A stretch of 24,767 nucleotides of DNA from a virus, in IMG/VR virus record IMGVR_UViG_3300025141_000708, positions 1 through 24,767 of that record; one strand, given 5' to 3'. The first letter of the stretch is position 1; each line of letters starts with the position of its first letter. A program made the position numbers and the translations under genes. The notes below the pieces were generated by a model. That model made no database searches, had not been told where the DNA came from, and worked only from the letters and a program-made list of their open reading frames with translations. This document shows, piece after piece, positions 7,291 through 23,101 of the stretch.

Positions 7291-7941
7291 ATGAAACTCA
7301 TTAGAGAAGAAATTGAATCTGTAGAGTTTCTTGTCGAACAAAAAAATGGCAAGAAATCTATGTATATAGAAGGTGTCTTCTTACAAGGTGACCTTCAGAA
7401 TAGAAATGGTAGGATGTATCCTATAGCTGTCCTGAGAAAGGAAGTTGCTCGTTATAATGAGGCTCATATCAAATCAGGTAGAGCACTTGGAGAACTTGGT
7501 CACCCCGATGGACCAACTGTCAATCTTGATAGGGTTTCCCATAAAATTGTTTCCCTAAAAGAGAGTGGTTCTAATTTCATTGGTAAGGCTAAAATTCTTG
7601 GTACTCCAATGGGTAAAATTGCATCTTCTCTTATAGAAGAAGGTGTAAAACTAGGTGTTTCATCTAGAGGTATTGGTTCCTTAAAACCAACAAGAGAAGG
7701 TGTAAATGTGGTCGGTGATGACTTTATGCTTTCAACTGCAGCAGATATTGTTGCAGATCCATCCGCTCCTGATGCTTTTGTTGAAGGAATTATGGAAGGA
7801 AAAGAGTGGGTATGGGATGGTGGTGTTCTCCGTGAGAGATCTGCTGCTAAAGCATACAGAGAAATTAACACTCTAGTAACGCAAAAACAGTTGGATGAGA
7901 AAAAGTTGGATGTATTCAACAATTTCCTCAATAGCCTGTAG
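7291..7941 (+). CDS. 21: Prohead core protease gp21
   Basis: This is the serine protease of the prohead core that cleaves gp22, gp23 and other head proteins during maturation. Its 216 residues compare with 212 in T4. The T4 catalytic His lies in ALGELNHP; here ALGELGHP places it at H71. The T4 catalytic Ser lies in GVSSRGLGS; here LGVSSRGIGS places it at S124. The YIEGVFLQGDLQNRNGRMYP segment (25-44) and PSAPDAFVEG (about 157-166) also match the family. The start codon touches the stop of the preceding gene, so translation is likely coupled. The spacer after it carries the strong late promoter for gp22. The identification is secure. Confidence 0.96.
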   Translation: MKLIREEIESVEFLVEQKNGKKSMYIEGVFLQGDLQNRNGRMYPIAVLRKEVARYNEAHIKSGRALGELGHPDGPTVNLDRVSHKIVSLKESGSNFIGKAKILGTPMGKIASSLIEEGVKLGVSSRGIGSLKPTREGVNVVGDDFMLSTAADIVADPSAPDAFVEGIMEGKEWVWDGGVLRERSAAKAYREINTLVTQKQLDEKKLDVFNNFLNSL

Positions 7942-8000: not shown

Positions 8001-9122
8001 ATGTCTCGTGGTACGAAATTACAAGAAATGGAGCAATCTAAAACTGCTGTGAAAGCCAATGCCGCCAAAAGCGATCCCCTCCCTAAGGAAGGTAGTAATG
8101 CTGCTGGTGTCAAACCCCCTGGCAACTCACCTCCATTTGAAGATCTAGGTGGTCCTACACCTGAAAATAATAGTCCAACTGACGATTCAAATAAATTGAA
8201 GACCCCAGGTAAGACTCTTAAACAGGTTAGTGACGTAGTCACTAATAAAAAACCACCTGCTGGGAATGGGCAATCTGCTGGTACTAGCGCTACTGCTGTA
8301 AAAGTACCTGAGGAAGTGGAATCAGAAGATTCTGTAATTGAAGAATCTCCAGAAATTACTGATGAAGTAGTAACTGAAGAGGAAGTAACTGAAGAAGATT
8401 ATGACATCGAAGAAGATGTTAATGCCCTCTTTGGTGGAGAAGAACTCAGTGAAGAGTTCAAGGCAAAAGCCAAGACAATCTTTGAAGCTGCCATTGGTTC
8501 TAGGACCAGGGAAGTAAGAGAAGCACTGGAAGTCCAGTATGCTGAGAGGATTGCTGAAGCAACTGAAGATCTTGAAGTATCACTTCAAGAAAGAATTGAT
8601 TCTTATCTTGAGTATGTTGCTGAAGAATGGCTAACAGAAAATGAGCTTGCTGTAGAAGCAGGTCTCAAGACAGAAATGACAGAATCATTCCTTGGTGGAA
8701 TGAAGGATCTTTTTGAAGAACATTATGTACAAATCCCTGAAGACAAATATGATGTTATTGAGAGTATGGTAGACAAATTAGATGATATGGAAACCAAGCT
8801 CAATGAGCAAATCGAGAAGAATATCGGATTAAACAAGCGTCTCGCAGAGTCGGTTGCTGATAGTATCCTTGAATCAGTTTCTGATGGATTAGCTTCCACT
8901 CAGAAAGAGAAGCTCGCCTCACTTGCCGAAAGTGTTGAGTTTGAAAGTGAAGAAGAATATCGTGAAAAGTTGGAAACTCTGAAGGAATCATATTTCTCCA
9001 GATCTCCTGCTGCTAAGAATGACTCACAAACCCTTTCTGAGGGTGTAGATAGTACTGCTGCTCCTGTATCTGCAGGAATGGAAGCCTATCTCAAGACCTT
9101 GGGAGCATTCAAGCAAAACTGA
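8001..9122 (+). CDS. 22: Prohead scaffolding core protein gp22
   Basis: This is the major internal scaffold of the prohead, removed by gp21 before DNA packaging. From about residue 141 onward the protein matches T4 gp22: ALFGGEELSEEFKAKAKTIFEAAI (142-165), then a long helical region, YVAEEWLTENELAVEAGLK, SFLGGMKDLFEEH and STQKEKLASLAESVEF. The first 140 residues or so are an added low-complexity part: first a Pro/Ala/Asn/Lys-rich stretch (20-100), then a Glu-rich acidic stretch (103-140). This makes the protein 373 residues against 269 in T4. GGAG at 7988 sets the start at 8001. The identification is sure; the function of the extension is unknown. Confidence 0.94.
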   Translation: MSRGTKLQEMEQSKTAVKANAAKSDPLPKEGSNAAGVKPPGNSPPFEDLGGPTPENNSPTDDSNKLKTPGKTLKQVSDVVTNKKPPAGNGQSAGTSATAVKVPEEVESEDSVIEESPEITDEVVTEEEVTEEDYDIEEDVNALFGGEELSEEFKAKAKTIFEAAIGSRTREVREALEVQYAERIAEATEDLEVSLQERIDSYLEYVAEEWLTENELAVEAGLKTEMTESFLGGMKDLFEEHYVQIPEDKYDVIESMVDKLDDMETKLNEQIEKNIGLNKRLAESVADSILESVSDGLASTQKEKLASLAESVEFESEEEYREKLETLKESYFSRSPAAKNDSQTLSEGVDSTAAPVSAGMEAYLKTLGAFKQN

Positions 9123-13889: not shown

Positions 13890-14396
13890 ATGCCTTTTAC
13901 CCCTGCTTATGGGACAATGAAGAGAACTCCTAAGAGATCCGAGCATTATGTTAATAATAAAGAGTTCTTGGCTGCCCTAGAGAATTATTTTGCTGAGGTG
14001 GAAAGGGCTGCATTGAATGATAAACCTAAACCTCAAATACCTAGGTATATTGGTGAATGTTTTTTAAAGATTGCTAACCATCTATCATATAAGCCAAACT
14101 TTGTGAATTATATGTTTAAGGATGATATGATATGTGATGGTATTGAAAATTGTGTGAGATATATTGCTAATTTTAATCCAGAGAAATCTAAAAACCCCTT
14201 TGCTTATTTTACTCAAATAATTTATTATGCTTTCCTTAGAAGGATTTCGCAAGAGAAAAAGCAATTAGAAATTAAGAATAAGATTTTAGAAAAGACTAAT
14301 TTTGATGAAGTCTTTGATGCTAATGATATGGATAGTGCTAATTATTCAGAGTATAACTCTATCAAAGATAGCGTGCATTCTAAATTGAGAAATTAA
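13890..14396 (+). CDS. 55: Late-transcription sigma factor gp55
   Basis: gp55 is the small sigma factor that redirects host RNA polymerase to late promoters. Its 168 residues compare with 185 in T4. The match covers HYVNNKEFLAALENYF (19-34; T4 YNYVNNKELLQAIIDW), MICDGIENCVRYIANFNPEKSKNPFAYFTQIIYYAFLRRISQEKKQ (T4 [46 protein letters not shown]). In T4 the extreme C-terminus carries the clamp-binding peptide SLDFLYE; here the protein ends in SIKDSVHSKLRN with no such motif. The start at 13890 follows AAGGA; a second ATG lies at codon 10. The stop overlaps the gp47 start (TAATG). The identification is strong. Confidence 0.92.
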   Translation: MPFTPAYGTMKRTPKRSEHYVNNKEFLAALENYFAEVERAALNDKPKPQIPRYIGECFLKIANHLSYKPNFVNYMFKDDMICDGIENCVRYIANFNPEKSKNPFAYFTQIIYYAFLRRISQEKKQLEIKNKILEKTNFDEVFDANDMDSANYSEYNSIKDSVHSKLRN

Positions 14397-15708: not shown

Positions 15709-17404
15709 AAAGATTTCGTGGCGCAACTTTTTAAGCACTGGCAATCATTCTACAGAAGTTATACTTAATCAAAATCCTACTACTTTAGTTGTAGGTCAAA
15801 ATGGAGCAGGAAAGTCTACTATTCTGGATGCATTGACTTTTGTTTTATATGGAAAGTCTTTTAGGAAAATTAATAAATCACAACTAGTTAATAGTTCTAA
15901 TGAAAAAGATTGTTTCGTAAATATTGAATTTTCTATTACTGGAACTAATTGGAAGATTGAAAGAGGAATAAAACCTAATATCTTTAAGATCTTTAGGAAT
16001 GGGGAAGAGATGGATCAATCACATTCTGCGTTGAATCAGCAGAAGTGGTTAGAACAGTCTGTTCTAAAGATGAATTATAAATCTTTTACACAGATTGTTA
16101 TTTTAGGTAGCAGCACTTTTGTGCCATTTATGCAACTGCTTCCTGGAAGTAGGAGGGAAGTTGTAGAAGATTTATTGGATATTAAAATCTTTTCTTCGAT
16201 GAATGTTCTTATTAAAGAGAAAATAAGAGGAGTAAAGGATGAAATTAAAACTTTAGATTTAAAGAAAGAATCTTTAAAGGATAAAGTAGAGATGCAAAAG
16301 AAATTTATTGAAGAGGTAGAGTCTAGAGGAAAAGAAACTATAGAAGAAAAGAATAAGAAGATTGATGAACTAGATCTATCTGTAGCAAAGTTAATAAAGG
16401 ATAATGAATTCTATGAAGATGAAGTAGTAGGATATACAAAGATGAGAGAGAAGAGTGTGGGTGCTACAGAAAAACTTCTTAAGTTAGCTGGATTAAGAGG
16501 TAAGATCTCTAACAAAGTATCAACTATTACCAAAGAACATAAGTTTTTCACAGATAATACTGTTTGTCCTACTTGTACTCAACCAATTGAGGAGGGATTC
16601 AGAATAAATAGGATTGAAGATGCTCAAACTAAAGCAAAAGAGTTGCAATCTGGTTTTAAAGAACTAGAGGAGGCAATTAAAACAGAAGAAGAAAGAGAGC
16701 GTCACTTTACTACTGTATCTAAGGAGATTATTCAACTCACGCATGGCATTTCTAAAAACAATACTCAGATCGCTGGCTGCCAACGACAAATCAGGGATCT
16801 TGAATCGGAAATTCAAAGAGTTACCGAGCAACTTGCAAACAGAAATACTGAGCATGAGAAGTTAGAATCTTTTAGAAATAGTCTTCAAGACACCTACCAA
16901 CATTTGGCTGAGAAGAAAGAGACTATTTCTTACTATGATTTTGCTTATGGACTCCTGAAAGATGGTGGAGTTAAAGCAAGCATAGTTAAAAAATATTTGC
17001 CTTTGATAAATCAGCAAGTTAATAAGTACTTGCAGATTATGGATTTTTATATTAATTTTAAATTGGATGAGGAATTTAATGAGACTGTGGAGTCTCCCAT
17101 CCATGAAGATTTTTCTTACTCTTCTTTCAGTGAGGGAGAGAAATCTAGAATAGATTTAGCTCTTATTTTTGCCTGGAGAGAAGTTGCCAGGTATAAGAAT
17201 TCTGTTAATACAAATCTAATGTTATTTGACGAAGTATTTGATTCGTCTTTAGATGGGTATGGTACCGATGAATTCATGAAGATTATTAGGTTTATTGTAA
17301 AAGACGCTAATATCTTTGTTATTTCTCATAAAGATTCATTACACGATAAGTTTGCAAGTTTAATAAAATTCGAAAAAGTAAAAGGATTTAGTAGGATAGC
17401 GTAA
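15695..17404 (+). CDS. 46: Recombination endonuclease subunit gp46 (Rad50-like ATPase)
   Basis: gp46 is the SMC/Rad50-type ATPase partner of gp47. Its 569 residues compare with 560 in T4. Walker A GQNGAGKST lies at 34-42; two coiled-coil arms (about 175-285 and 305-400) flank a zinc hook CPTC at C291-C294; the ABC signature SFSEGEKSR is near 476-484; Walker B LMLFDE ends at D512/E513; and the H-loop VISHKD is near 543-548. Everything expected of an active enzyme is present. It overlaps the DUF3110-like gene by 14 bases, and its stop overlaps the first sulfotransferase start (TAATG). The identification is secure. Confidence 0.97.
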   Translation: MIIFEKISWRNFLSTGNHSTEVILNQNPTTLVVGQNGAGKSTILDALTFVLYGKSFRKINKSQLVNSSNEKDCFVNIEFSITGTNWKIERGIKPNIFKIFRNGEEMDQSHSALNQQKWLEQSVLKMNYKSFTQIVILGSSTFVPFMQLLPGSRREVVEDLLDIKIFSSMNVLIKEKIRGVKDEIKTLDLKKESLKDKVEMQKKFIEEVESRGKETIEEKNKKIDELDLSVAKLIKDNEFYEDEVVGYTKMREKSVGATEKLLKLAGLRGKISNKVSTITKEHKFFTDNTVCPTCTQPIEEGFRINRIEDAQTKAKELQSGFKELEEAIKTEEERERHFTTVSKEIIQLTHGISKNNTQIAGCQRQIRDLESEIQRVTEQLANRNTEHEKLESFRNSLQDTYQHLAEKKETISYYDFAYGLLKDGGVKASIVKKYLPLINQQVNKYLQIMDFYINFKLDEEFNETVESPIHEDFSYSSFSEGEKSRIDLALIFAWREVARYKNSVNTNLMLFDEVFDSSLDGYGTDEFMKIIRFIVKDANIFVISHKDSLHDKFASLIKFEKVKGFSRIA

Positions 17405-18033
17405 TGTCCATTTATAAACATCCCGAGGGGAAAAGGTTTTTATTCATTCATATTCCCAGAACTGGAGGAAGATTTATTGAGTCAAATTTAGAATCTAACG
17501 AATGGAGGTGTGAACCCATAGATTATTATGGAGTGCCTCATTATAATCATTCATTTATAGATGATTGTGAAATAACTCATTTTCATAGACAATTGTATGA
17601 AAAGTATTTTAATGCAAAAGATATTCCTCATATTTCCATCATTAGGAATCCCATTGATAAATTCTTTTCGGCATCCATTTATTTGACTCAAGCCTATGGA
17701 CCTAATATTCAGGAGGCTGCTGAAGACGAATCTCAATTTAATGACATGTTGAAGGATTTTCCTAAACCAGAGAATCTTAATTGGTGGAGATCACAGGTGG
17801 ATTTTCTTTCAGATAAAACTCATATTTGGAGATATGAGGATGGATTGGGACCTAAGTTTGCTCAGTGGATAAGTAAAATGGTTGGAATGGATATTAAGAT
17901 AGATGCATATGCCAAATATCCTATGAATCATCATGAAAGAACTGGTCAACTACTAAGGACTCCTAAACTTATAGAAAATATCAAAAAACTTTGTAGACGA
18001 GATATAGAACAACTTTATCCTGAATTGATGTAA
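17404..18033 (+). CDS. Sulfotransferase-like protein, copy 1
   Basis: This 209-residue protein looks like a PAPS-dependent sulfotransferase of the Sulfotransfer_2 type. The 5'-phosphosulfate loop is HIPRTGG at 16-22, with Arg where Lys is usual. The 3'-phosphate site is RNPIDKFFSAS (81-91), where R81 and S89 have the canonical eight-residue spacing. DFLSDKTHIWRYED (about 138-151) and the C-terminal CRRDIEQLYPEL also fit such enzymes. No signal peptide or membrane segment is seen, so it would act in the host cytoplasm; the acceptor is unknown. It is a clear paralogue of the next gene and is coupled to gp46 by TAATG. The Arg for Lys change leaves activity open. Confidence 0.75.
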   Translation: MSIYKHPEGKRFLFIHIPRTGGRFIESNLESNEWRCEPIDYYGVPHYNHSFIDDCEITHFHRQLYEKYFNAKDIPHISIIRNPIDKFFSASIYLTQAYGPNIQEAAEDESQFNDMLKDFPKPENLNWWRSQVDFLSDKTHIWRYEDGLGPKFAQWISKMVGMDIKIDAYAKYPMNHHERTGQLLRTPKLIENIKKLCRRDIEQLYPELM

Positions 18034-18674
18034 TGGCAACCTTTAAGCATGTAGAAAGTGGAAAGAGATTTCTTTTTGTTCATATACCCAGAACTGCTGG
18101 TAGATTTGTAGAATGGAATTTAGAAGCTCAAGGGTGGGTGTGGGATGATAAGAATGTTATTGATAAGATGTATAAGAGTGTGGAGGGAATAGAACTTGCA
18201 CATTTTCACAGAGAGTTTTATGAAAAGTATTTGGATGTAAAGGATATTCCCCATATTTCCATTGTGAGAAATCCTATTGATAGATTTATTTCTGCATCTA
18301 TTTGGTTGACCAGATTATATGGAGACGACATTCAAGAATCTATGGAAGATCCTATGATGTTTTCTTCTATGATTTATAATTTCCCTGCATCAGAATCTCT
18401 TAATTGGTACAGACCTCAAGTGGATTTTATTTCGGATAAAACTCATGTATGGAAATTTGAGGATGGTATTGGGGATGAGTTTTCCAGATGGATAAGTGGC
18501 ATAGTGGGGGTAGACATTAAGATGGATAAGGACTTAAAGTACTTGAAGCATCCTAGGATGCGGGAAGATAGTGTGGAGAGTCGACTGAAGAAAACAGATG
18601 CTCTTATACATAATCTTAGTATTTTTTATAGGAAGGATTTCTTTAAATTCTATCAAGACAATGAAAGTCCCTAA
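18033..18674 (+). CDS. Sulfotransferase-like protein, copy 2 (tandem paralogue)
   Basis: This 213-residue protein is related along its whole length to the preceding gene, from GKRFLFVHIPRTAGRFVEWNLE (10-31) through AHFHREFYEKY, KDIPHISIVRNPIDRFISASIWLT (70-93), LNWYRPQVDFISDKTHVWKFEDG to the C-terminal FYRKDFFKFY. The PAPS-binding loop is HIPRTAG at 17-23, and the 3'-phosphate pair is R79 and S87. By eye about half of the aligned residues are identical, so the duplication is old, and the central loop (residues 35-55) and C-terminal quarter differ most, as expected if acceptor choice has changed. The start overlaps the previous stop (TAATG). Its last 14 bases overlap a short basic reading frame. 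Confidence 0.75.
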   Translation: MATFKHVESGKRFLFVHIPRTAGRFVEWNLEAQGWVWDDKNVIDKMYKSVEGIELAHFHREFYEKYLDVKDIPHISIVRNPIDRFISASIWLTRLYGDDIQESMEDPMMFSSMIYNFPASESLNWYRPQVDFISDKTHVWKFEDGIGDEFSRWISGIVGVDIKMDKDLKYLKHPRMREDSVESRLKKTDALIHNLSIFYRKDFFKFYQDNESP

Positions 18675-18882: not shown

Positions 18883-19053
18883 ATGCACAATTTGGTATCA
18901 CACAATGAGCTGGCCAGCTGGAAATGGGATGAAAAAAACACCCAAGATGAGAAATATACACAAGTATCCGATTATTTCCAGTGCATTTCAGAATGTGATA
19001 TTGTAGACCATCAGGCAAGGAGATTCTGTAGACACATCCTAACAGTCGATTAA
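18883..19053 (+). CDS. Small hypothetical protein, 56 residues
   Basis: This short gene starts MHNLVSHNELASWKWDEK and ends RRFCRHILTVD. It has a very good ribosome binding site, GGAGG at 18872-18876, six bases before the ATG, and a late-like octamer at 18852. The protein is polar and charged, with three Cys (C34, C38 and C49) and His residues at 2, 7, 43 and 51, so weak metal binding is possible but there is no clear ribbon. No signal or membrane segment is seen. It stands alone between two hairpins. I do not recognise it; the quality of the start signals is the main reason for calling it. Confidence 0.7.
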   Translation: MHNLVSHNELASWKWDEKNTQDEKYTQVSDYFQCISECDIVDHQARRFCRHILTVD

Positions 19054-19085
19054 CGTTAACCTTAAAAAGGAGAACAACCCCCAAG

Positions 19086-19111
19086 ATCCCCTCTGATGAA
19101 AAGGAGGGGAT
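19086..19111 (+). terminator. GC-rich hairpin after the 56-residue gene, possible terminator
   Basis: ATCCCCTC at 19086-19093 and GAGGGGAT at 19104-19111 form a perfect 8-bp stem around a 10-base loop. The following bases TTGGTTCGTTT are only partly T, so this is either a weak terminator or a transcript-stabilising hairpin. Confidence 0.5.
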
Positions 19112-19123
19112 TGGTTCGTTTAT

Positions 19124-19131
19124 CTAAATAA
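19124..19131 (+). promoter_or_regulatory. Putative late promoter before the repeat-protein gene
   Basis: CTAAATAA lies 21 bases before the ATG at 19153, just after the hairpin. Late expression would fit the proposal that the downstream protein is packaged into the head. Confidence 0.45.
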
Positions 19132-19152: not shown

Positions 19153-19707
19153 ATGAAGAGTTTTTTACAATTTAATGAAGATGCTGAATCAGCACATAGA
19201 TCTATGACTTCGGGATTAGGACAATCTCGTTCTGGTACTATAGGTGGTAGTTATAATAAACCATCTGTAAGACCTAAGACTGGTATAGGTGGATTCCTCA
19301 AAGATAAGATAAATCAAATGAGGAAACCTGAGTTGCGATCCCAGCAAAAAAAGGCTTCATCTTTAACTAAGAAGCCAGATACGTCAGTTCAAAAAGTAAA
19401 CGTTAGTGTTCAGGATAGGGGGAAAGAACGTCCGGCATATAGACCAAGACTTACTCCTGCAGAGAAACAGAAAGTATCTGCTGCTAAACAGAAAAGACTT
19501 TCTTCAAGCGCCAAAAGGAAAGCACTTGTCCCTATTCCCCAACAAAAAGCTCTTCCCCCTAGTCCCCAACAAAAAGAACTTCCTCCTAGTTCTAAACAAA
19601 AAGAACTTCCTCCTAGTTCTAAACAAAAAGAACTTCCTCCTAGTCCCCAACAAAAAGCACTTCCTCCTAGTTCTAAACAAAAAGCACTTCCTCCTGCCAG
19701 ATCATAA
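19153..19707 (+). CDS. Basic repeat protein with a capsid-targeting-like N-terminus; candidate internal head protein
   Basis: This 184-residue protein is strongly basic and low in complexity. Its N-terminus MKSFLQFNEDA resembles the capsid-targeting peptide of T4 internal proteins (MKTYQEFIAE), which directs them into the prohead and is then removed by gp21 after a (L/I)xE-like site; here the matching cut would follow FNE (E9). Residues 30-125 are rich in Lys, Arg, Gln, Ser and Pro. Residues 129-182 are six nine-residue repeats of the form (P/S)(Q/K)QK(A/E)LPPS. A late-like octamer lies at 19124 and a strong terminator follows, so it is a single-gene unit. The real gene call is good; packaging and injection with DNA is inference from the N-terminal motif and charge. 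Otherwise it may be a structural linker protein. Confidence 0.75.
   Translation: MKSFLQFNEDAESAHRSMTSGLGQSRSGTIGGSYNKPSVRPKTGIGGFLKDKINQMRKPELRSQQKKASSLTKKPDTSVQKVNVSVQDRGKERPAYRPRLTPAEKQKVSAAKQKRLSSSAKRKALVPIPQQKALPPSPQQKELPPSSKQKELPPSSKQKELPPSPQQKALPPSSKQKALPPARS
19537..19698 (+). repeat. Six tandem 27-bp coding repeats
   Basis: Six consecutive 27-base units are built on cc..AACAAAAAG.(A/C).CTTCCTCCTAGT. Two kinds of unit start alternate: CCCCAA in units 1, 2 and 5, and TCTAAA in units 3, 4 and 6. Units 3 and 4 are identical. The repeat is in frame and encodes nine-residue units in the gene at 19153. Copy number probably changes by slippage or recombination. Confidence 0.95.
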
Positions 19708-19717
19708 AGTGTCTACT

Positions 19718-19743
19718 ACCTTCTCAATTGAGGAGGTTTTTTT
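19718..19743 (+). terminator. Intrinsic terminator after the repeat-protein gene
   Basis: ACCTTCTC (19718-19725) pairs over 8 bp, with one G-T pair, with GAGGAGGT (19730-19737) around AATT, and seven T follow to 19743. This is a strong terminator 27 bases before the cobT-like gene. Confidence 0.9.
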
Positions 19744-19770
19744 GTATGATGGAGGGATAGAAAAAATAGT

Positions 19771-21837
19771 ATGATCAATTACGAAATCAAGTCCCATCTT
19801 GCTAAGCTTCTTGCTACTGAGGATTTGGTGGTAGAACATCAGCATGTAGATACTGCTCAATTTAATGTAGAAACTAGGGTGTTGACTTTGCCTTTGTGGA
19901 AAAAGGCATCTAGTGTAGTTTATGATATGTTGGTTGGTCATGAGGTAGGACATGCGCTTTTTACTCCCAATAGATGGGATTTTAAAATTCCTAAACAGTT
20001 TGTAAATGTATGTGAGGATGTACGTATTGAGAAATTGATGAAGCGTAAATATCCTGGTATTGCTAAAACATTATATGTTGGATATAATGCATTACATGAT
20101 GAAGATTTTTTTGATATAGATGGTGAAGATCTTACTACTTTTAATCTTGCTGATAGGATTAATCTATACTATAAGGTGGGTTCGTTCGTTGATTTGGATT
20201 TTGACCCTATTGAAAAGGAGATTGTCGATTTAGTTGGTGCTGCTGAAAGTTTTGATGATGTTTTGTATGCTGCTCAAGCTTTGTATGATTACTGTAAACA
20301 GCAGATAGAAGAACCCAAGGTTCCCTCTATAGAAAATAAGGATATTCCTCCTCCGGAGGAGCAAGGTGAAGAAACTTTTGAGGAGCAATTTTTTGATGAT
20401 GGAGTTGAAGAAGAGGAAGAATTAGATTCTACAGATAATAGTTCTAGTGGTGATCTGGAAGTTATTACTGATACTGCTTTTGAGGAGGGGTCTCAGCAAT
20501 TAAATGATCTCACAAATAATTTAGAGAGTGTATATGTTGAGATTCCTAAGGTAAATATCAATGCTATAATTGAATCTAATTTAGAAATTCATTCTACCTT
20601 AGAAGAAAGTTGGAAAGATCAACTTTTTCCTTATACTGATTCTTCAATAGCAGATTTTAGTTTCTGTGATTCTCATTATGAGCAATTTAAAAGTTCTGCT
20701 CAAAAAGAAGTTAATTATTTGGTAAAGGAATTTGAATGTAAGAAAGCATCTGACAGTTATGCTCGTGCTACTACAGACCGTACTGGGGTTCTCGATACAA
20801 CGAATCTTCAAACATATAGATTTAATGAAGACCTTTTTAAGAGAGTTACTGTCCTTCCGGATGGTAAGAGTCATGGACTTATTTTCATTTTAGATTGGTC
20901 TGGATCTATGGGAACTGTTTTAGAAGATACTGTGAAGCAATTATATAATCTTGTTTGGTTCTGTAGTAAGGTTCAAATTCCTTTTGATGTTTATGCATTC
21001 ACTGATGGTTATGGTCAATGGAAACATAAGGATGAATTGCCTCTTCCTAGGATGAAAAAGGAAGAAGGTAAATTGTATGTTAATGATCAATTCTCATTGA
21101 TGAATATTTTTACTAGTAAAGTAAGTAGAAATATATTAGAAAAGCAAATGAAATCTTTTTGGAGGGTGACTTTTTATTTGAGTCATATGAGGATGATGCC
21201 TAAGTATGATATTCCTCTTCAGTATAGATTATCTGGAACACCTTTAAATGAATCTTTGATCGCTTTGCATCAAATTATCCCTCAATTTAAAAAAGAAAAT
21301 AGGGTGCAGAAAGTTCAATGCGTTATTTTAACTGATGGAGAATCAAATGCACTGCCTTACCATAAGATAGTACAACGTTATTGGGAGGATGAACCTTATA
21401 TGGGATGTAGGAATATTAGTCCTCATCATACCTACCTTCGTAATCGTAAAACTGGACATACTTATCAATTTGGATATAAGTATTGGGAGTTTAGTGAGGT
21501 TCTTTTGGAGGATTTAAAGGAAACTTTTTCTGATACTAATTTTATTGGTATTAGATTACTTTCTAGTGGAGATTTTGGAAAATTTGTGAGGAGATATAAT
21601 CCTTTTATTAGTGATAATAAAATGAGACAAGCGAGAAAGAATAAGTCTTATATTATTAATAATAGTGGATATCATTCTTATTTTGGTATTCTATCTTCTT
21701 CTCTTTTTAATGATGAATCATTTGAAGTGGAAGAAGATGCACCTAAAGCAAAGATTAAGAGTGCATTCATCAAATCTTTGAAGAATAAGCAACTAAATAA
21801 AAAGATATTAGGAGAATTTATAGAGCTGGTAACCTAA
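19771..21837 (+). CDS. CobT-like protein: HExxH metallopeptidase-like region plus VWA domain
   Basis: This 688-residue protein pairs with the AAA+ ATPase downstream. Near the N-terminus it has HEVGH (57-61) followed by VCEDVRIEKLMKRKYPGIAKTL (80-101), a zinc-peptidase-like arrangement; the segment around E82-K91 also recalls CobT of aerobic cobaltochelatase. An acidic low-complexity linker covers about 206-262. The C-terminal half is a VWA domain with MIDAS residues D375, S377 and S379 in LDWSGSMG and T521/D522 in LTDGES. Such VWA proteins work with MoxR/CobS-type ATPases to remodel or metallate a target. GGAGGG at 19751 is 14 bases before the ATG. Architecture is clear; the substrate is unknown, and real B12 synthesis is unlikely to be the direct role since no CobN is present. 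Confidence 0.85.
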   Translation: MINYEIKSHLAKLLATEDLVVEHQHVDTAQFNVETRVLTLPLWKKASSVVYDMLVGHEVGHALFTPNRWDFKIPKQFVNVCEDVRIEKLMKRKYPGIAKTLYVGYNALHDEDFFDIDGEDLTTFNLADRINLYYKVGSFVDLDFDPIEKEIVDLVGAAESFDDVLYAAQALYDYCKQQIEEPKVPSIENKDIPPPEEQGEETFEEQFFDDGVEEEEELDSTDNSSSGDLEVITDTAFEEGSQQLNDLTNNLESVYVEIPKVNINAIIESNLEIHSTLEESWKDQLFPYTDSSIADFSFCDSHYEQFKSSAQKEVNYLVKEFECKKASDSYARATTDRTGVLDTTNLQTYRFNEDLFKRVTVLPDGKSHGLIFILDWSGSMGTVLEDTVKQLYNLVWFCSKVQIPFDVYAFTDGYGQWKHKDELPLPRMKKEEGKLYVNDQFSLMNIFTSKVSRNILEKQMKSFWRVTFYLSHMRMMPKYDIPLQYRLSGTPLNESLIALHQIIPQFKKENRVQKVQCVILTDGESNALPYHKIVQRYWEDEPYMGCRNISPHHTYLRNRKTGHTYQFGYKYWEFSEVLLEDLKETFSDTNFIGIRLLSSGDFGKFVRRYNPFISDNKMRQARKNKSYIINNSGYHSYFGILSSSLFNDESFEVEEDAPKAKIKSAFIKSLKNKQLNKKILGEFIELVT

Positions 21838-21838
21838 A

Positions 21839-22006
21839 ATGGAAGATTGGACAGTTTGTCCTTATTGTGAAAGGTCGGATAGATTATGCTCCGAGATACT
21901 CAGTATAGAATCTGCTTATGCTCGAGATGATTGTAGAAAAAGACATCGTGCACAGACACCTGACAAAGTGTCCTATTATGGTGTTTATTATAATGATATA
22001 GATTAG
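21839..22006 (+). CDS. Small Cys-rich protein, 55 residues, possible zinc-binding
   Basis: A short reading frame begins one base after the stop of the cobT-like gene and encodes MEDWTVCPYCERSDRLC and onward, ending YYNDID. Cysteines lie at 7 and 10 (CPYC), 17 and 32, with His at 36, so a small zinc site using C7, C10, C17 and C32 is possible. The C-terminus is Tyr-rich. Its place between the VWA gene and its ATPase partner suggests it is co-translated and could be an adaptor or regulator, but that is a guess. I recognise no family. The tight junction and absence of a better frame in this gap support it. Confidence 0.65.
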   Translation: MEDWTVCPYCERSDRLCSEILSIESAYARDDCRKRHRAQTPDKVSYYGVYYNDID

Positions 22007-22030
22007 AATATTTTTAATTGAAAAGCACAC

Positions 22031-23101
22031 ATGGTAATGAGTATTGATAATATAGTTTCTTCCCTTGCAGATCTTTATGGTACTGAAGTAGTGGCTGCTG
22101 ATATCCGTGCTTGGTGTTCTATGAATAGTGGTAATTATCAAACAGTGACTAAGAAAATAGAACAGTATAAAGTTGGACGTGGTAAGTGGAATCTAACTTA
22201 TACAGAGAAACTTGAAAAAACTTATAATGCTCCTGCTGTTGTTCCTAATATAGAGCAAAATCTTATTCCTCAAAAAGATGATACCTTCATCAACTTTGGT
22301 CCTTTTAATGATATTAAGACCATTATCCAAACCAATTTGTTCTATCCTACATTCATTACTGGCCTTTCGGGCAATGGTAAAACGTTTGGTGTTGAACAAG
22401 CCTGTGCGCAACTTAGAAGGGAACTGATTCGTGTCAACATCACAATCGAAACCGACGAAGACGACCTTGTTGGTGGGTTTCGCCTTATTGATGGTAACAC
22501 TGTATGGCATAATGGACCAGTTATCGAAGCACTGGAAAGGGGAGCTATCCTCCTTTTAGATGAGATTGATTTAGCATCCAATAAAATTCTTTGCTTGCAA
22601 CCTATTCTTGAGGGTAAAGGTATTTTCCTCAAGAAGATAGGTAGGTTTGTTCATCCTGTTCCTGGATTTAATGTTATTGCTACTGCCAATACAAAAGGAA
22701 AAGGTTCAGAAGATGGTAGATTCATTGGTACTAACATACTTAATGAGGCATTCCTGGAGAGATTTCCTGTAACTTTTGAGCAGAATTATCCATCACCTTC
22801 CGTGGAGACTAAGATTTTAGGAAAAGTCGCTTCTTCTTTAAAGATAGATGATAAAGATTTTTGCAAGCGTTTGGTAGATTGGGGTGACATTATTCGTAAA
22901 ACATTCTATGATGGAGGTATTGATGAGATTATTAGCACTAGGCGTCTTGTTCATATTCTATGTGCTTATTCCATTTTTGGCGATAAGATGAAAGCAATTC
23001 AAGTTTGTGTAAATCGATTTGATGATGAGACTAAACAAGCATTCCTTGAACTTTATGACAAGGTAGATGCAACAGTTCAACTTCCGGTTGACCAAGAATA
23101 G
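22031..23101 (+). CDS. cobS: CobS-like MoxR-family AAA+ ATPase
   Basis: This 356-residue AAA+ ATPase is of the type annotated as cobS in T4-like cyanophages. Walker A GLSGNGKT lies at 111-118, Walker B ILLLDEID has D177/E178, sensor 1 is in ATANT (about 217-221), and the arginine-finger region is LNEAFLERFP (about 237-246). The ETDEDDLVGGFR segment (138-149) and QPILEGKGIF also match CobS. A helical N-terminal 90 residues replaces the usual CobS N-terminus. In aerobic B12 synthesis CobS and CobT drive cobalt insertion by CobN; here the partner is the gene at 19771. The start could also be the ATG at 22037. Identity as a CobS-type ATPase is sure; the biological target is not. Confidence 0.88.
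   Translation: MVMSIDNIVSSLADLYGTEVVAADIRAWCSMNSGNYQTVTKKIEQYKVGRGKWNLTYTEKLEKTYNAPAVVPNIEQNLIPQKDDTFINFGPFNDIKTIIQTNLFYPTFITGLSGNGKTFGVEQACAQLRRELIRVNITIETDEDDLVGGFRLIDGNTVWHNGPVIEALERGAILLLDEIDLASNKILCLQPILEGKGIFLKKIGRFVHPVPGFNVIATANTKGKGSEDGRFIGTNILNEAFLERFPVTFEQNYPSPSVETKILGKVASSLKIDDKDFCKRLVDWGDIIRKTFYDGGIDEIISTRRLVHILCAYSIFGDKMKAIQVCVNRFDDETKQAFLELYDKVDATVQLPVDQE

Follow-up and report, generated by a model that had tools for sequence, protein, structure and literature searches.

Introduction

Targeting of the T4 internal protein IPIII requires its first ten residues, among which residues 4 and 7 are the chief ones, according to the accessible sections of a study of this signal (PMC9026906). 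In the same sections, the T4 protease gp21 cuts after L/I-x-E, processing hinges on residues 8 and 10, and processing is inhibited by an Asp at residue 10, which still permits targeting. The available part of a cyanophage survey (PMC3037559) describes T4-like phages as ubiquitous throughout the marine environment. When the literature was searched for capsid targeting together with cyanophage, the sole co-occurrence in the text available was the word 'cyanophage' in a title within a reference list, and a search on internal or prohead proteins of Prochlorococcus phages, judged by titles, returned none about cyanophage heads. To our knowledge, hardly anything is known about what marine T4-like phages inject besides DNA.

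Here, we analyzed the full 24,767 bases of a virus record and refer to this stretch as the window. The record is T4-like, and its nearest relatives are marine cyanomyoviruses, with 72-78% DNA identity among the 20 listed of 56 matching phage records. Judged from its sequence, one gene of the window probably encodes an accessory, late-expressed, capsid-targeted internal head protein of a T4-like cyanophage, to which we assign a probability of roughly 0.6.

Results

The gene and its predicted protein

An earlier note on this DNA had placed an open reading frame at 19153-19707, and these coordinates are correct: on the plus strand, the coding sequence of the candidate capsid-targeted, basic internal protein runs from the ATG at 19153 to the end of the stop codon at 19707 and encodes 184 aa. 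The upstream neighbor (18883-19053, plus strand) encodes a conserved 56-aa protein that matches phrog_665 in PHROGs, and the downstream neighbor (19771-21837, plus strand) is a conserved phrog_459 gene, annotated as a peptidase and known as T4-GC 146 in P-SSM2. Also on the plus strand are genes for a gp21-type head maturation protease, which would trim tagged proteins (7291-7941; phrog_207, 1.1e-81), a gp22-type head scaffold (core) protein as the presumed partner that binds the tag (8001-9122; phrog_237, 4.4e-108) and a gp55-type late sigma factor (13890-14396; phrog_234, 2.5e-65). The presence of these three in the window supports the capsid-targeted reading. A gp23-type head protein and a portal are likewise encoded in the 24.8-kb window, no tRNA was found in it, and nothing around the 19153-19707 gene reached the Rfam gathering score. 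Two adjacent sulfotransferase-like genes (phrog_3347), with Pfam matches below cut-off, lie in tandem at 17404-18674.

The protein had been described as very basic and of low complexity. Both descriptions are borne out, with 39 Lys and Arg against 12 Asp and Glu and a pI of 10.8, and with a low complexity that resides chiefly in one tandem array of 27-nt repeats (19519-19695, plus strand), whose 6.6 copies encode 9-aa units of the KQKELPPSS type. In a structure model made from four sequences, residues 4-19 form a helix of moderate confidence (mean pLDDT 76 and 69 in the first two ten-residue blocks) and no confident fold appears past residue 19 (mean pLDDT 59.8 overall); the model suggests that the 184-aa protein is mostly disordered.

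Neither Pfam nor NCBIfam gave a match to the 184-aa protein, and the PDB search with the profile of the family alignment, A1, returned none. A tape-measure match in PHROGs was weak (E 0.071) and was rejected for low complexity. With tblastn against phage records, five records were matched, the best being Caudoviricetes sp. (E 3e-4, 57% coverage), and four mycobacteriophage records were at E 0.6. Considering that the repeat part is covered and the tag is not, these matches were rejected as composition.

Family members and divergence

When the phrog_459 gene was used as the query, 53 loci were obtained, two of which (L005 and L006) have an ORF that resembles the 184-aa one at the equivalent place. 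With L006 as the viral-contig query, 3 of 25 matches were confirmed and L058 was added. The viral-contig search with the 184-aa protein itself matched a pattern in 17 stretches, none of which was confirmed, and that with alignment A1 gave 3 confirmed matches of 77, every contig being already known. The family consists of five copies, four complete (window, L005, L006 and L058) and one truncated at its 5' end (L003), in which the repeats of the window protein were not found as an array. The three complete relatives have 93-101 aa and a pI of 11.4-11.6, and they end in KPNPITKGLGARPA where the window protein carries its repeats. A basic and divergent body is found throughout, with pI values of 10.8-11.6 across complete members. 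All four complete members keep M1, K2, F4 and F7 together with the block SAHxxxT.G.....SGT[IV]GG...RP.xG, which corresponds to the family-specific conserved region at 19189-19287 on the plus strand (SAHxxxTxGxxxxxSGT[IV]GG ... RPxTG in alignment A1). The proteins of L005, L006 and L058 had no match in PHROGs; among phage records, the L005 protein had no match and the L006 protein had one, at E 1. A DruH match in PADLOC, for L058 only, was weak (E 0.02) and was rejected, and none of the PADLOC defense profiles was accepted for the family.

Poor conservation of the protein is evident in these contigs. The proteins of L005, L006 and L058 are 37-39% identical to that of the window, and 40-42% when only aligned residues are counted, versus 64-69% for the neighboring phrog_459 protein in these three contigs. 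Between the window and L003, the peptidase is identical at 688 of 688 residues and the 184-aa-family protein at 65 of 93 aligned, but this contrast was not accepted as a demonstration of rapid evolution, given that the reference block is recombined or chimeric. Near-identity of the two is confined to the stretch that begins with the peptidase and ends with a cobS-like gene (2066/2067, 168/168 and 1071/1071 bases); in gp45, 532 of 666 bases are identical. Window positions 19771-23101 (~3.3 kb) are virtually identical to L003, and the genes further out, the 184-aa gene and gp45, are identical at about 77-80%. Since the near-identical block has divergence on either side, it reflects either recent recombination or a chimera of the metagenome assembly. 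With gp45 as a fairer reference, the 184-aa gene still shows an excess of non-silent changes: non-silent and silent codon differences between the window and L003 numbered 35 and 12 in the 184-aa gene versus 35 and 68 in gp45 (Fisher p = 7e-6), in a rough test in which the alignment of the repeat part is uncertain.

Transcription signals and the genomic slot

The gene had also been credited with a late-like element and a terminator of its own, and both find support. A late-promoter-like CTAAATA is located at 19124-19130 on the plus strand, 29 nt 5' of the ATG. The number of CTAAATA occurrences in the window does not exceed expectation (6 versus 8.1), so it is the placement that serves as evidence. 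Ten of the 14 forward [AC]TAAATA sites in the window are intergenic, where intergenic DNA makes up 1071 of 24767 bases; the single site on the reverse strand is not intergenic, and the intergenic sites are all on the coding strand. Those with a downstream gene in the window lie 18-46 nt 5' of the CDS start, the gp20- and gp22-like genes included. The cyanophage late promoter consensus is given as NATAAATA in the accessible part of its source (PMC2984593), and the site of the 184-aa gene departs from it as TCTAAATA. At the equivalent position, L005, L006 and L058 have [TG]ATAAATA. The putative late promoter upstream of 19153 is significant in its placement and does not match the published consensus exactly.

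On the 3' side of the gene, a terminator-like hairpin (stem 19718-19737) and a T run occupy 19718-19744 on the plus strand. Comparable hairpins, as seen by eye, precede the phrog_459 gene in several loci that lack the 184-aa gene. An upstream hairpin at 19085-19112 (plus strand) was placed as the terminator of the preceding gene, and loci without the 184-aa gene have, again by eye, a terminator-like hairpin after that gene at the equivalent position. The 35 bases at 19088-19122, which comprise this hairpin and the sequence after it, are identical among the window, L006 and L058, where the phrog_459 proteins are only 64-67% identical.

The repeat array and the lack of an accepted database homologue would suit a degenerate or non-coding ORF that is maintained by repeat expansion. 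Since promoter-like and terminator-like elements flank the ORF, its differences from L003 preserve the frame and the frame is intact in four other contigs, we consider this extremely unlikely.

The gap between the phrog_665 and phrog_459 genes was examined in 54 sequences: 52 of the 53 loci (all but L004, whose match starts at base 1), together with the window and L058. The script recognized the upstream gene in 41 of the 54 and failed in 13. Among the 41 gaps, 32 measure 127-154 nt and have no room for a gene, 6 measure 797-812 nt, and 3 (window, L006 and L058) hold the family of the 184-aa protein. Three of the six long gaps were read (L019, L022 and L049), and each contains a reverse-strand ORF of 214-216 aa. 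The start of this ORF, MKKLLST[LI]FASI.LSTP.SA, is signal-peptide-like, and three further loci have a gap of equal size. In several of the short gaps that were printed, two hairpins are already present by eye, and the 184-aa gene sits between their equivalents. Based on the gap sizes, the other occupants and the empty sites with two hairpins, the slot looks like an accessory-gene site.

An accessory slot with alternative occupants and many amino-acid changes among the copies could also point to a narrower form of the internal-head-protein reading, in which the packaged protein has a specific job as an injected anti-defense protein against a cyanobacterial nuclease, like T4 IPI, an inhibitor of a modification-dependent restriction nuclease. 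The T4 internal proteins are diverse with the targeting sequence alone conserved, as described in the accessible text of PMC3012670, which is in line with such a job. However, no defense-related profile was accepted and no folded domain is predicted, whereas the fold of IPI* is compact in the same text, and this specific role seems unlikely.

The N-terminal tag across phages

The first ten codons (19153-19182, plus strand) encode MKSFLQFNED, a tag that resembles a capsid-targeting sequence on the grounds of family conservation and enrichment in an ORF survey. The earlier note had compared the N-terminus with MKTYQEFIAE, and the resemblance proved to be above chance in the survey and by the invariance of M1, K2, F4 and F7 in the family; residues 4 and 7, the main targeting positions in T4, are both Phe in four of four complete members. 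The survey counted MK[STKN][FYL]xxFx(1,2)[ED] starts among 2246 ORFs of seven cyanophage genomes, with 300 shuffles as the null. Thirteen ORFs were tagged, versus a shuffled mean of 0.16 and a maximum of 2 in any of the 300 shuffles, where the pattern alphabet had been broadened after the first matches and the null is thereby somewhat generous to enrichment. A strict form closer to T4, MK[ST][FY]x[QE]Fx(1,2)E, was present in 4 of the 2246 and in none of 300 shuffles. The median pI of the 13 tagged ORFs was 9.8, versus 5.5 for all ORFs (p = 1.6e-5). P-SSM2, S-SM2 and P-TIM68 have three each, S-SSM7 two, S-SM1 and Syn9 one each and S-PM2 none. Because five of the 13 are copies of T4-GC190, which is the only tagged ORF in S-SM1 and Syn9, the 13 are not independent cases. 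A search for unrelated phage proteins that share the tag had been proposed, and otherwise unrelated, mostly basic proteins with the tag do occur in six of the seven cyanophage genomes. As a control, 3 of 293 T4 ORFs were tagged, namely two MKTYQEFIAE proteins and gp61.1. The pattern misses the T4 MKTFKEFTST protein, which we take to be IPI. At the DNA level, MK[ST][FY]xxF had 24 matches in 18 records versus 7 for the reversed pattern, several of the 24 being short frames.

In IMG/VR, the pattern MKSFx[QE]F[LIVFM]xEA had at least 120 matches, and no closed ORF shorter than 40 aa that starts with it was found among the 120 listed. After removal of the tag, the 119 listed sequences that were long enough fell into 10 single-linkage groups. 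The largest comprises 109 sequences and has a representative that resembles T4-GC190; the others are a pair and eight sequences that stand alone, the L058 member among them.

The pI of 10.8-11.6, the lack of a confident fold and a window copy without a cleavage site would likewise fit a late DNA- or RNA-binding protein outside the virion, histone-like, whose N-terminus matches the tag by chance or simply forms a helix of another kind. Such a protein appears quite unlikely, given tag positions that are invariant even though the members are only 37-39% identical to the window protein, and a tag that is well above chance across phages.

T4-GC190 links the tag to the virion. Mass spectrometry of purified S-SM1 virions identified 41 proteins, T4-GC190 being one of them, as reported in the available part of Sullivan et al. 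(2010, PMC3037559), and the S-SM1 copy, SSM1_190, starts MKKFSAFLNEAE. Ten orthologues were found in 11 records and seven have a readable tag, that of S-SSM7 from a GTG start; a readable tag was not found in those of P-HM2, S-PM2 and S-RSM4. On this report, T4-GC190 is located in the virion, perhaps inside the head.

The tagged gp111 of P-TIM68 is two genes downstream of the major head protein. S-SM2_108 and S-SSM7_235 are beside a tail-fiber gene or gp114, before GC119, which means that the tag may not be confined to head proteins. Their placement, together with T4-GC190 being known, in the accessible report on S-SM1, from the virion only, would be compatible with a tail or baseplate protein of the virion, or with a general virion-assembly factor, whose N-terminus docks on another partner. 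Against this, the matching T4 tag is a head targeting signal in the sections of PMC9026906 cited above, P-TIM68 gp111 lies close to the major head protein, and a disordered polycation body would fit DNA-associated head proteins better than tail parts; we judge it highly unlikely. S-SM2_065 (L320:1023-1604), with the tag MKTLGQFLAEAYDKD... and a pI of 10.7, is directly 5' of an annotated type II restriction-system gene. T4 gp61.1 (L096:767-931; T4 18966-19130, minus strand), with its MKTFKEFIKED start, adjoins gene 61.2 (adfA), and the gp61.1/61.2 region is a possible anti-TA island according to the accessible part of PMC9391042.

Cleavage of the tag

Residues 7-10 are FNED in the window protein and FAED in L006, and the gp21 motif [LI]xE is absent from both proteins over their entire length. 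In L005 and L058, the motif is present at residues 8-10 as LKE and INE, respectively. The earlier note had expected a mature form that starts at residue 10, with the cut after E9; because [LI]xE is absent and residue 10 is Asp, the T4 rule does not predict this form. P-TIM68 and S-SSM7 likewise have tagged proteins with Glu at position 9 (FSEN and FQEA, respectively). Residue 8 is Leu or Ile in 111 of the 120 listed IMG/VR matches, in line with [LI]xE, under a pattern that restricted this position to five residue types and required E10. In the window protein, the tag may be retained, or the cyanophage protease may be looser.

Discussion

Taken all together, the claim of a packaged head protein is upheld in part: the targeting-type N-terminus, the late promoter placement, the basic body and the poor conservation speak for it, and the mature form from residue 10 was not borne out. 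On sequence grounds, the 184-aa protein represents a credible new family of T4-style capsid-targeted proteins in cyanophages. It would work like a T4 internal protein, as a candidate member of that class in which one defining trait, the cleavage site, is missing. As an internal head protein, it would fold residues 1 to about 10-19 into a short helix, dock through it on the gp22-type scaffold core and in this way be enclosed in the prohead before DNA packaging. The basic disordered body would remain with the packaged DNA and be ejected together with it. The gp21-type protease probably cleaves after E10 in L005 and L058; in the window protein and L006, where the cleavage site is altered, the tag is probably kept or inefficiently cut. 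The likeliest roles would be to neutralize the charge of DNA in the head or to condense it there, or to shield the DNA as it enters the cell.

These results suggest that the ocean relatives of T4 may share its head-loading tag. A broader proposal, which we hold tentatively and at somewhat less than even odds, is that marine T4-like phages use a portable ten-residue tag to load many unrelated proteins into the head, from where they are delivered to cyanobacteria, with the 184-aa family as exchangeable cargo, some cargoes delivered without removal of the tag, and, jointly with this, a cargo range that includes enzymes (T4-GC190) and disordered polycations. Should the tag function as it does in T4, the packaged proteins of marine T4-like phages could be listed from sequence, and the core cyanophage protein T4-GC190 would be a candidate packaged enzyme.

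Comparison with known systems

P1 DarB is similar in that its first 30 N-terminal residues suffice to bring a reporter into the head, as far as the accessible description goes, but it is another protein of another phage lineage and the likeness is by description, not sequence. T4 gp61.1 (phrog_1823) has the MKTFKEFIKED start, whereas it is a 54-aa protein with a pI of 5.5 that is annotated as hypothetical, and no relation to the 184-aa protein was seen past the tag. T4-GC190, a cytidyltransferase-like core cyanophage protein present in the S-SM1 virion, starts with MKSFxxF[LF]xE or MKKFSAFLxEA; in contrast with the 184-aa protein, it has an enzyme-like FGRFNPP domain and about 380-460 aa, and no relation between the two was seen past the tag. 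T4 IPI, IPII and IPIII have a compact fold, where the model of the 184-aa protein shows no confident one, and an L/I-x-E site, which the 184-aa protein lacks; no sequence relation was seen beyond the tag, but they share with it M-K-[ST]-[FY]-x-[QE]-F at residues 1-7 and are likewise small, basic and poorly conserved.
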